Assembly (NCBI GenBank): GCA_034401795.1
Contig: CM067367.1
Span: 77,077,259-77,141,258, forward strand
Direction: 5' to 3'
Length of the DNA stretch: 64,000 bases
Origin: Chaetoderma sp. LZ-2023a
Taxonomy: Eukaryota; Mollusca; Caudofoveata; Chaetodermatida; Chaetodermatidae
This document shows, one piece after another, positions 7,671-47,249 of the stretch; position 1 is the first letter of the stretch; every line of letters begins with the position of its first letter. Made by a program: the position numbers and the translations under genes. The notes under the pieces are model-generated. The model had not been told where the DNA came from, made no database searches, and saw only the letters and a list, made by a program, of their open reading frames with translations.

Positions 7671-7746
7671 ATGCCTGGGAAAAGATGTTTGCACGAGCCG
7701 TACAGCAGTCCGGGAAGAAACAAGTATTCTTACACACAACTAGGAG
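7671..7746 (+). CDS. Conserved first coding exon, copy 1 (unknown protein)
   Basis: ATG at 7671 opens 25 codons plus one base ending at GTGAGT (7747-7752), a consensus 5' splice site, so the following intron is phase 1. The peptide starts MPGKRCLHEPY, continues SSPGRNK and ends YSYTQLG; it is basic and polar with no visible signal peptide or membrane segment, and I do not recognise it. Copies in units 2 and 4 have exactly the same length and phase. By hand count copy 1 matches copy 4 at 70 of 76 bases and copy 2 at 67 of 76, while sequence before the ATG is clearly more diverged. The same start is used in all three copies. I found no certain second exon. It could be an N-terminal cytosolic tail or be skipped in the mature product. 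Confidence 0.62.
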
Positions 7747-7810
7747 GTGAGTGAAACGCACTACAATAGCGACGCATTCCTATTATAGCAATGTGTTCTT
7801 ATAGCAATAC
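7747..7810 (+). repeat. Intronic 16-bp repeat after exon copy 1
   Basis: About three degenerate copies of an ATAGCAACGTGTTCTT-like motif just after the donor. The same motif follows the exon in units 2 and 4 with a different copy number. Confidence 0.6.
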
Positions 7811-8837
7811 GTCCATCTGCCCCTCTGTTTCCCACACCCAATCATATTGCTGCTGGTTATAAGTTACTTGAGGTTTAGGTCATACGGTCAAATGTCTACA
7901 TCATGGTTTCACATACATACTGGAATATATTTCTGGTGCTAACTCTGTAATGCTAGCTCAGAAACAGACCTTCACATTAAAATGCCTTAAGTGTGTTCAC
8001 ACATTGAGTTCAGTGGAGCCAATGTCTAGATCACCTGGCCACTAACTACATACCGGAACACACATTCTAGCATACCTTAAGAATCTAAGAAGGCGTTAGA
8101 CACATTCATTTATATTGAGAGCTGCCAAGAAGTACTTTGACTATCAGGCCAACGAGTTAACTAACCGTGTTTACTGCATCTCATAGTGAATAGAGGAGTA
8201 CACATTTCGGCCCATAACTGTGAAATGCAATGAGTATTAATCAGCAAATGTGCTCCATCCGTGCCATATTGTGTCTGTCTAGAATTATCTTGAGATTCAC
8301 GTTAACAGATCAATTATCTAGGCCATGTGTTCATTAAGTGCATATAGGAAAAGCAATATTATAATAATATGGACTGGCCATAACGCAGGATTGCAGGAAA
8401 GTAGAATCAACAAATGTGCACATTTTTCATTTTGTGTCTGACTAGAGTGCCTTTGCGGTTTAGATCAACGGATCACATATCAAGGGTAGTAGGTCACAAT
8501 GTGTTGACCACAATACATACTTTTTCCTGAAATCTGGAACCCAAGTAGGTAGAATCGCCAGATTTGGCATGCGCCTTCACATTTCGGCTGCTTTGGATTA
8601 CTCTTGAGTTTGACTAATATATCTATTTCACGTGGCCGCTAATAGCATTAACAAAACAGAACAGTTACCAATCATTGACCATTGTCAACACCATTTGCAA
8701 TATTGCTGTCATTGTTGCTATCATACGTGTTATTATCACCAGTGAGGTCATAGAAATTGTCGTCGTCATCATCGGCAGTTTGGCCTACATACTTGTATTA
8801 CATTCTTGTACTACTAAAATTACATATAGGCTACGGG

Positions 8838-9085
8838 AATGCTTAACCCTTTAACAATCATATCAGCAAAAATATCTTCTGCAATGTGTTTGTGAAATGT
8901 CCTTTTGCAGACCAAGAGAAGACTATTTTTGAAAATTTACCACTGGAATGACTGGCTCGGTTACCGAGCCAGTCATTCCATTGGTAAATCTTCAAAAATA
9001 GTCTTCTCTTGGACTGCAAATTGACATGTTCTATGAGGAAATTCAAATTTCCTTTAACAAATTTGAGGTGTAAGGGGCTAATAAA
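8838..9085. mobile_element. HP2 hairpin MITE, copy a
   Basis: Ends near TTAACCCTTTAAC and GGGGCTAA. The centre is a long hairpin: AGAGAAGACTATTTTTGAAA, AATTTACCACTGGAATGACT, GGCTCGGTTACCGAGCC, then the reverse complement back to TAGTCTTCTCTTGG. No coding capacity. The ORF across it reads a hairpin. Confidence 0.85.
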
Positions 9086-10296
9086 TCAATCACCTTGTTT
9101 ATTGGCAAGGTCTTGCGATAGAGGAGAACATCTCTCAGAACCTGTGCTTTTTGTGGACCCGTGTAGTCAGAGCATCTGCTAATTTTGTCCATGTCGGTTA
9201 CTAATGAATTCATGTATATTCACAATAAGCCATATGCCCTTGAGTGTACATTTATACGTTATACATATTGACAATTAAATTTGTATGCTTTACAATTATC
9301 TAGATAGCTAATCTTATAACTAATACAGTGAAATTCTCTTTAGCGTTATATTCACAAGCCCTTCACCAACATAATAACTTTGTAAAGGCGGGCTTACACA
9401 GTTTAAACATGGCTTGGGCATATTATTTATACACTTTTCACCAATATATAACATATTACCTATGGGATGAATAACACCATACAATACAATTCGTAGATCT
9501 AAGCATGCTAATATTTTCTAGGTATTTCTACCATATATAGAAACTATGGCCGTGTTTGGATTGGGCATGTTATTTCATGTCCTTGAAGGATCTATTTCTT
9601 CTTAATGTCGAAAGAAAACCCGATGGTCCTTATGTGCATTCGTAGAATGCATTTGCTACGTGGAACAAACAATATAATAATTACAGTAATACAATGCATC
9701 ATTGATGCTAATTCTATGGGCCACTATACTAACTTAATCTCCAAAGACTCACGATCACCTGGCTCGCTATCAATGCACAATCTAATGAGGCAATGCATAT
9801 AGACAATAGATTCAGCGTTTATAGAGAACGTGTTCACTCTGAATTTATAAATAAAAAAACCTGATTTGAAACTTGAAAGTACATACTACTGATTATTTTG
9901 AAAACAATTTGGAATGAAGACGATTTCAAATCAATTTGTTTTCAAAATAATCGGCCAGTATTTAGTTTTAAAGTGTGTTGTTAAAATTGTTTGCCCTCTA
10001 ATGGACTATGGCTATAATTATTACATGCTTATTGCAAATTTCATCATCTCGTTGCAATTCTCGTAGTTACGACGAAAATAAACACGAATGATATTAGCCT
10101 GGATAATAGTTATAATCCTTGGCCATTAAATGTGGGAGTAATCCAAAATGAGTTTCCATTTACCACGAACTATTGTTATTATTATTATTCCGTTTTGTGT
10201 ACACATTATGGCACATAATACCTGCTTCCGTGACTGTGTGAATGAATCCATGTTGTGTGCGTTTGTGTATGCGTTTGTTCATACGTTTTGCGCGTA

Positions 10297-10466
10297 CGTT
10301 TGTGCGTGCGTGCGTGCGTGCGTGCGTGCGTGCGTGCGTGCGTGCGTGCGTGCGTGCGTGCGTTTGTGTGTGTGTGTGTGTGTGTGTGTGTGTGTGTGTG
10401 TGTGTGTGTGTGTGTGTGTGTGTGTGTGTGTGTGTGTGTGTGTGTGTGTGTGTGTGTGTGTGTGTA
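10297..10466. repeat. (CGTG)n then (TG)n microsatellite
   Basis: Tetranucleotide GTGC repeats to about 10352, then pure TG to 10466. All ORFs across it are repeat artefacts. Confidence 0.98.
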
Positions 10467-10734
10467 TATATGCATGCATATTATCTAAATTATCGTATTG
10501 ATTTGCTACCCATACTTCCAATACCTGAAAACTGAAAATAATATATTGTTAATATACCTTTTTTAATCGATTTGAATTGTTGCTAAATGTAGAAAGAACG
10601 GCCGGTGGTATTCTGTGTTTATACACCTGTAAAATGTAAACGTTCTGGTAGTAAAACGTATCGCTGTAGGCCCTATTGATAAATGTCAGGCAGCGCAATA
10701 TGTTGGCGCGTGATGAAATACATATGCTTTTTTG

Positions 10735-11064
10735 TCCAATGGGCACTGTATCCATCCATCATATGACGTATATTTGAAGATGGACTATGCGTTGTTGTAC
10801 TAATTGTATGCCTTTACTATTTAATAAATATCATGTTGAATATTTTGAAACTAATTTGACTGGGCGCTGTTGCTGCCATAGCTGCCAATGTCAGCAACAG
10901 CACCCAGTCAAATTAGTTACAAAATAGTCAAAAGCTTAACTGTATAGTTTTCAGGAAATTTATGGTCAGGACATTCCGGGATCGATCAATCCCAACACGA
11001 CGAAGTGTGGGCGGAGCTTATCTAGTGATGGGCGGGGCATAGCTAAAACTGGAAATGTCCATTA
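10735..11064 (+). mobile_element. HP1 copy (CRE end shortened)
   Basis: Begins TATCCATCCATCATATGACG; the middle CRE block is missing. Hairpin arms ATTTTGAAACTAATTTGACT and CAGTCAAATTAGTTAC, then GGGATCGATCAATCCC, GGGCGGAGCTTATCTAG, and the end ACTGGAAATGTCCATTA. Confidence 0.85.
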
Positions 11065-45854: not shown

Positions 45855-46085
45855 TTAACCCCTTAATGAGTAAATTAAGAATACAAAAAAAATATATTTG
45901 TTTAATGAATTTGAATTTGCAAGTCAAGGGGTTAATTTTCGAAAATTTACTATTGGGATGACTGACTCGGTTATCGAGGCAGTCATCGCAGTTGTACATC
46001 TTCACAAATTGCCTCCTCTTCAGATGCAACGCGATATTCCTGAAGACCACTGCAGAGGCCAGCTTTGGCCGCCTTTGACATGAAG
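45855..46085. mobile_element. HP2 hairpin MITE, copy i
   Basis: TTAACCCCTTAATGAG start, hairpin TTACTATTGGGATGACTGAC / GGCAGTCATCGCAGTTGTAC, ATTCCTGAAGACCACTGCAG, ending near TTTGACATGAAG. Confidence 0.78.
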
Positions 46086-46249
46086 TGCTAAAACGTAAAT
46101 TTGAATTTGATGCCAGGGAAATTGTTTTAAAACGGTTTGCAAATCTGCGAATTATGACAATATACGGGTTCGGTTTATTACATAGTATAATATACACACT
46201 GAAAAAGATGATTTTGTATGCGCAGAGCGCTCTAGAAAGGTTTGCCCAA

Positions 46250-46645
46250 TGAACGCATGGCAGTTTCTCAGAAAATCAAATGACGTCATAATCAACTACG
46301 TCACGTGTAGGCTGATATCATAATAAATTACGTCAGGAATGACGCAATTTAGTCTGTCATAAACGCAGAATAGTGGGTCAAGTTATACGAATTGTATGTC
46401 TTTCCAATTTAATAAACATTCTGTTGACATATCTTGAAACTAATTTGACTAGGCGCAGTTGCTGCCAAAGGCAACCACAACACCCAATCAAATTAGTTTC
46501 AAAATATTCACCAGATTACCTGAAATTGAGATTCAGAGAGTGCATGGATAGATTGACCCTAAGGCGGGCAATGCGTGGGTGGAGCTTAGCTAGAGATGGA
46601 CACGCCAAAGCTAAAATTGGATTTCACCATTGGTAGTGTGGCACA
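46250..46645 (+). mobile_element. HP1 copy (CRE end first)
   Basis: AAATGACGTCATAATC, ACGTCACGTGTAGG, hairpin with centre TTGCTGCCAAAGGCAACC, GGTGGAGCTTAGCTAG, AAAATTGGATTTCACC. Confidence 0.8.
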
Positions 46646-46827
46646 TCATGGGATCTACTGTCCTTAGATGTTGACCGTTCAAATTAGTTTCACATTATTC
46701 ATTATTGTATATTAAATTATAAAGTAGTCTTTGTATTCGTTTTTTCCGGTGGAAAGCGTTAAGTCAAATGGTTGAAAGACGACCATTCCTTTGCTATACC
46801 ATCTTATGACCACAGTTAATGCATCGT

Positions 46828-47070
46828 AATATATATATATATATATATATATATATATATATATATATATATATATATATATATATATATATATATATAT
46901 ATATATATATATATATATGTTATATATATATATATATGTTATATATATATATATATATATATATATATATATATATATATATATATATATATATATATAT
47001 ATATATATATATATATATATATATATATATATATATATATATATATATATATATATATATATATATATAA
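46828..47070. repeat. (TA)n microsatellite with two TGTTA interruptions
   Basis: Nearly 240 bases of TA, located 100 bases upstream of exon copy 4. Confidence 0.97.
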
Positions 47071-47173
47071 TGAGGTTAAAGGTAACTTGAATTCTTCCAG
47101 TTGACACAAAATTATGGATATTTAGTTTGAAAAAACCCAATGAAGCACAAAAATCTTACTCGAGCCCACGATA

Positions 47174-47249
47174 ATGCCTGGGAAAAGATGTTTGCACGAG
47201 CCGTACAACAGTCCCGGAAGAAGACAGTATTCTTACACACAGCTAGGAG
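47174..47249 (+). CDS. Conserved first coding exon, copy 4 (unknown protein)
   Basis: ATG at 47174, 25 codons plus one base, donor GTAAGT at 47250: the strongest donor of the three copies. The peptide begins MPGKRCLHEPY, then NSPGRRQ, and ends YSYTQLG. The block CTTGAATTCTTCCAG followed by TTGACAC about 80 bases upstream resembles a 3' splice acceptor; unit 3 has CATTCTTGCAG at the same place, but units 1 and 2 have lost the AG. The copy has no stop or frameshift. The intron begins with the 16-bp repeat and later contains an inserted repeat (47600-48770). Gene identity and remaining exons are unknown. Confidence 0.62.

Follow-up and report, generated by a model that had tools for sequence, protein, structure and literature searches.

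In this study, we describe a tandem array in the genome of the caudofoveate mollusc Chaetoderma sp. LZ-2023a in which a 76-base block, opened by an ATG and closed by an exceptional splice donor, is conserved in three copies. The window analysed is a stretch of 64,000 nucleotides of contig CM067367.1 (assembly GCA_034401795.1), which a search of the animal's own 2.44-Gb genome placed at C9:77077259-77141258. The explanation we lean towards, with somewhat less than even confidence, is that a tandemly duplicated and partly decayed host gene has the block as its spliced, probably coding first exon. Constraint on the exon is visible at the level of nucleotides and codon constraint is not; transcription, splicing, translation and a partner exon are what we infer from this arrangement.

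Organisation of the array

Self-comparison of the window together with 200 kb of flanks (264 kb examined, of which 13 kb was masked) revealed an array of about 78 kb, from window position ~5858 to 83776, with at least six collinear same-strand units at one locus; a first-pass annotation of the window had counted three tandem units. The unit order is block C, upstream element and exon, block D, block A, block B and then the next block C. Individual units are without certain blocks, and the missing pieces vary from unit to unit. Block C is present in six copies, block B in five and one more that is inverted, the upstream element in five, blocks A and D in four each and the exon in three (Table 1). 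Apart from the inverted copy of block B, this is the collinear, same-strand duplication at one locus that characterises tandem host gene families.

The exon region gave three genome-wide matches as DNA and three as peptide, block A was found at four places and as a 50-base inverted piece, and block C at six places, all of them inside the array; the search scores best first-look candidates only, and distant relatives of the exon and of blocks A and C could escape it. The genome-wide dispersal expected of a transposable element was not found for the exon, block A or block C; their confinement to the array supports a tandem host locus and argues against a dispersed transposon or other mobile element carrying them. 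Pattern scans of bacterial genomes and viral contigs and a peptide search of phages gave no matches, as expected for a eukaryote.

Table 1. Features of the tandem array, in window coordinates
Feature	Position	Strand	Remark
76-base exon, unit 1	7671..7746	+	direct reading and alignment
76-base exon, unit 2	22703..22778	+	direct reading and alignment
76-base exon, unit 4	47174..47249	+	direct reading and alignment
Donor GTGAGT, unit 1	7747..7752	+	score 12.0
Donor GTGAGT, unit 2	22779..22784	+	score 12.0
Donor GTAAGT, unit 4	47250..47255	+	score 11.8
Upstream (promoter-like) element, unit 1	7555..7670	+	promoter role inferred
Upstream element, unit 2	22627..22702	+	conserved copy
Upstream element, unit 3	39538..39659	+	exon after ATG replaced by minisatellite-like sequence
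Upstream element, unit 4	47083..47173	+	conserved copy
Block A	17433..17740, 32983-33261, 41925-42202	+	fourth copy outside window, at window-equivalent 76524 (L009:2524-2793)
Block B	18785..19550; others from 34201, 42791, 55943	+	one further copy outside window
Block B, inverted copy	54112-54582		inside unit 4
Block C, unit 1	5858..7212	+	acceptor-like site 6491
Block C, unit 2	19365..21390	+	acceptor-like site 20670
Block C, unit 3	36063..37175	+	acceptor-like site 36881
Block C, unit 4	43492..45470	+	acceptor-like site 44744
Block C, unit 5	56750..57930	+	acceptor-like site 57312
Block D	9699..10189, 28012-28465, 52935-53556	+	fourth copy outside window

Conservation of the exon and its splice donor

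The exons of units 1, 2 and 4 read MPGKRCLHEPYSSPGRNKYSYTQLG, MPVKRCLHEPYTSPRRRPYSYTQLG and MPGKRCLHEPYNSPGRRQYSYTQLG, respectively. Each holds 25 codons and one further base of an ATG-led open frame, ending in phase 1, and is directly followed by GTGAGTGA in units 1 and 2 and by GTAAGTGA in unit 4; the shared length, ATG, phase and donor reported in the first-pass annotation were thus all confirmed on reading the three blocks. The exons of the intact units lie 15 and 24.5 kb apart. They differ at 9/76 (units 1 and 2), 6/76 (units 1 and 4) and 6/76 (units 2 and 4) positions with zero indels, and the next best exon-like place in the window, on either strand, has 40/76 mismatches.

Aligned non-exon sequence of the same three pairs contained, in the same order, 213/942, 41/168 and 30/164 mismatches (identities of 77%, 729/942; 76%, 127/168; and 82%, 134/164), and gaps opened once every 35, 42 and 164 bases. 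The exon is therefore more conserved than its flanks (one-sided Fisher p 0.016, 0.0013 and 0.025), as had been proposed, and equal divergence of exon and flanks was not seen in the alignments around the three exons. Non-exon sequence is 75-82% identical in the stretches measured, from which the duplication is judged to be old. The exon had also been put forward as the only good sign of a host feature, and this is not supported so far, since other blocks of the units match its identity in a 76-column scan: 33145/42113 (92%), 17601/33122 (91%), 6917/45141 (91%) and 6997/21171 (89%), with dispersed repeats reaching 95%.

Donor and acceptor scores were computed for each column of the shared-block alignments, using generic matrices that were not trained on the present species. 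The exon donor is kept in all three copies, with a lowest score of 11.8, and the sole difference between copies is a change of G to A where either letter is usual. In control alignments (reverse-complemented, reversed and complemented) the best donor reached 6.3 over 3144 columns, and the control maximum was 9.7 with more copies, when one failure was tolerated in columns of at least five copies. The exon ends, that is, in a conserved splice site that scores above the control alignments. The window holds four occurrences of the word AGGTRAGT, each of them on the + strand, compared with an expectation of 3.03 for both strands together, and three of the four are the ends of the three exons; their number is unremarkable and their placement is not. 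The donor provides the best evidence for an exon ending at this point; if the exon is real, a conserved splice donor of this kind can flag an exon where codon statistics fail.

Coding potential of the exon

Ten columns vary within the 75 coding bases. Pairwise changes summed to 4 synonymous and 17 non-synonymous, and random placement gave a mean of 4.09 synonymous (P 0.59), so that translation of the exon, as first proposed, is not supported so far. The BLOSUM score of the exon was slightly high (P 0.094). Column shuffles gave P 0.15 in the + frame for the exon alone and 0.18-0.44 with flanks, and the lowest P of all frames, 0.07, belonged to a minus frame. By the Nei-Gojobori method, pS was 0.124-0.129 and pN 0.067-0.119 in the exon, both below the flank divergence of 0.18-0.24. 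The exon frame is open for ten codons upstream of the ATG, to an aligned stop, in all three copies, which makes the ATG a plausible, unproven start; an A stands at -3 before it in all three. The exact 11-letter start of the peptide was found in no paper of the literature searched, which is a weak test, as sequences are seldom printed.

The same figures bear on the possibility that the units give rise to one or more spliced non-coding RNAs, whose first exon would matter by its sequence or by a promoter-proximal function, the ATG-led frame being incidental. Constraint at the nucleotide level, with both pS and pN under the divergence of the flanks and no codon signature, is what such an RNA would leave, and blocks elsewhere in the units reach the same conservation with no consistent codon signal. 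The frame is nevertheless open in each copy with its A at -3, and so few variable columns give the codon test little power; we consider this explanation fairly unlikely.

A gene on the opposite strand was also considered. The minus strand of the exon had the highest codon z of 291 stretches (3.19), but in fixed three-way tests of the minus frame P varied with the stretch chosen, from 0.07 to 0.32, and an antisense gene was set aside as unlikely. A conserved minus-strand acceptor-like site is located inside the exon at 7674 and at the homologous sites (lowest score 7.7, three copies).

Upstream element and loss of the exon

An upstream element precedes each exon, and the exon is present behind three of the five such elements found. 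In unit 3 the element is kept as far as the ATG and minisatellite-like sequence then takes the place of the exon; in unit 6 about 75 bases of the element are followed by unrelated sequence. Since the exon is gone behind two upstream elements, part of the array is probably dead.

These losses, together with the retention of different blocks in different units, are what would be expected if the units were relic duplicates, that is, unexpressed fragments of a once functional locus in which the exon stands out by chance or through a short gene-conversion tract. We think this very unlikely, because the exon exceeds its flanks in conservation in three pairs and its donor is kept in 3/3 copies, and gene conversion confined to the exon in three copies is itself improbable.

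According to the duplicated-gene explanation that we favour, at least five ancient head-to-tail duplications would have copied the whole host-gene locus, which would since have decayed in part. The transcript would begin a short way before the ATG, within the element common to five copies, and exon 1 would encode the first 25 codons of a protein, in which no signal peptide was seen. The phase-1 donor would be spliced to a later exon, which may be in block C.

Block C and the search for further exons

Acceptor-like sites in block C score 7.2-8.9 in all five window copies, and a sixth copy, at window-equivalent 81678-82344 (flank segment L009), has the site as well. The sites are located 10-14 kb downstream of each exon, and in all five copies translated the exon frame, read in phase 1 past the acceptor, meets its first stop only after nine or more codons. 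Units 1 and 2 share an aligned polyadenylation signal (7034 and 21208) that units 4 and 5 do not have.

Several findings weigh against a coding exon of a duplicated gene. The exon shows no codon signature in any frame (its 10 variable columns providing little power), and its peptide has no match in PDB. Units 3 and 6 have an upstream element with no exon behind it, and unit 5, a stretch that is partly masked, yielded neither of the two. The equal conservation of blocks A and C is not accounted for by exons. The block C acceptor, at 7.2, is no better than control acceptors (7.7 and 8.2), and no further donor rises above the controls, the next best being 5.5 (block B) and 5.0 (block C). Finally, no host domain of Pfam was found in the frames scanned, which comprised the window except + 1-7600, + 63400-64000 and minus 1-10000, 49300-52000 and 61900-64000, where single ORFs (open reading frames) only were included. 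The multi-exon gene family first suggested is therefore not supported so far. Of the broader proposal of a tandem gene family, the tandem host locus, the conserved exon and the outstanding donor stand; translation and further exons are as yet unsupported.

Given that no second donor is conserved, two designs fit the data, a gene of two exons that ends in block C and a set of alternative first exons with one distant exon in common. According to the latter, each unit would be a promoter with a short first exon, all of them spliced to one downstream exon on the same strand. The intact units do share strand, length, phase and a strong donor, each exon has a conserved upstream element before it, no other donor of the units is conserved above controls, and no second coding exon was found. 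A common exon was not identified, however, the 25-residue products are nearly alike, so that little protein diversity would be gained, and another role would be needed for blocks A, C and D. We rate such an arrangement as unlikely. Less likely again is its more specific form, a hitherto undescribed tandem cluster in which near-identical 25-residue N-termini, each with its own promoter and joined to a common exon outside the array, would diversify regulation and not sequence.

Codon tests across the shared blocks gave scattered high windows and no consistent signal. A codon signal in block C reached z 3.56 (units 2-5, 2448 windows) and 2.66 to 2.71 with units 1-5; in units 1, 2 and 3 its frame is interrupted by a stop after the strong acceptor and before the signal, and with all six copies included it ranks below the top 14 windows. 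This signal marks at most a candidate exon. A segment at ~8376 (8368-8442; 23454-23528 in unit 2) had z 4.94, the highest of 2448 windows, in two copies only, and was set aside; both segments end at an aligned stop and, by eye, are preceded by in-frame stops. In unit 4, a candidate for the second exon at 53222 (phase-1 acceptor 9.4, 80 open codons) was rejected, being an insert in one of four block D copies. Block B as a coding exon (window z 4.11, best of 1800) was likewise discarded, as the whole block over five copies gave z 1.47 in the highest-scoring of the six frames and no pair exceeded 1.51; its longest frame has no match in PDB.

Block A, which equals the exon in conservation (up to 92% in 76 columns), has neither a donor that exceeds the controls nor a consistent codon signature. 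An Rfam hit on this block to mir-17 (18.1 bits against a threshold of 49.5) was taken as chance. The inverted copy of block B is closest to the copy of unit 6, a sign of rearrangement in the array.

Other features of the window

The only Pfam family above cut-off in the frames scanned was a reverse transcriptase of LINE (long interspersed nuclear element) type at 2660-3901 on the minus strand (PF00078, E 1.8e-30). Two ORFs on the minus strand, 59495-60205 and 61171-61533, resemble what we take to be a DIRS-type retroelement and have no Pfam hit. These LINE-type and DIRS-like pieces, together with the genome size and the repeat content, leave the impression of an animal genome, perhaps a molluscan one. 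The rows for TMEM192, Ntox22, DUF6350, DUF4763 (E 0.00027), ATG16, CCDC113/96, Extensin, DUF3915 and SARAF were below the curated cut-offs, and tandem repeats contain or overlap six of these nine. A minisatellite at 35177-35752, with 27.5 copies of a 21-base unit and open in both directions, contains the weak DUF4763 and coiled-coil rows. A short interspersed repeat with a palindromic core, at 26284-26627 and elsewhere, has more than 12 copies in the window, on both strands.

Comparison with known systems

Spliced-leader RNA genes carry a short exon followed by a strong donor and are arranged in tandem. Here, in contrast, the exon is 76 bases long and its copies are separated by kilobases, as given above, and a window-wide Rfam scan with 4227 families gave no match at the gathering score, to a spliced-leader RNA or any other family.

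The array also invites comparison with the variable first-exon clusters of protocadherin, UGT1, GCNT2 and chelicerate sDscam genes, in which, as here, first exons of identical phase and donor stand in tandem on a single strand and have an upstream element each; for the present units both first-exon status and promoter activity are putative. The first exons of protocadherins are long. The exons described here are short by comparison and nearly identical, and no constant exon was found. The alternative-first-exon design is described for protocadherins and for chelicerate sDscam, with sDscam cassettes of two or four exons (PMC4835542), and for UGT1 and GCNT2 (PMC1885805). No report of tandem variable first exons in a mollusc was found in the literature searched, which says little, as subscription papers were mostly outside its coverage. 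If the units are alternative first exons, they would add one more case of a rare gene architecture.

Gene families that evolve by birth and death likewise consist of head-to-tail units at one locus, with unequal decay and an exon conserved in several units, and the present array differs from them in that the first exon alone is recognisable. Should the exon prove real, it would mark a host gene invisible to the domain searches run, one that was repeatedly duplicated and lost at a single locus. The array is thus plausibly a new host locus of an ordinary kind, and its interest would lie mainly in transcripts, should these reveal a shared downstream exon of the kind that defines the variable first-exon clusters.

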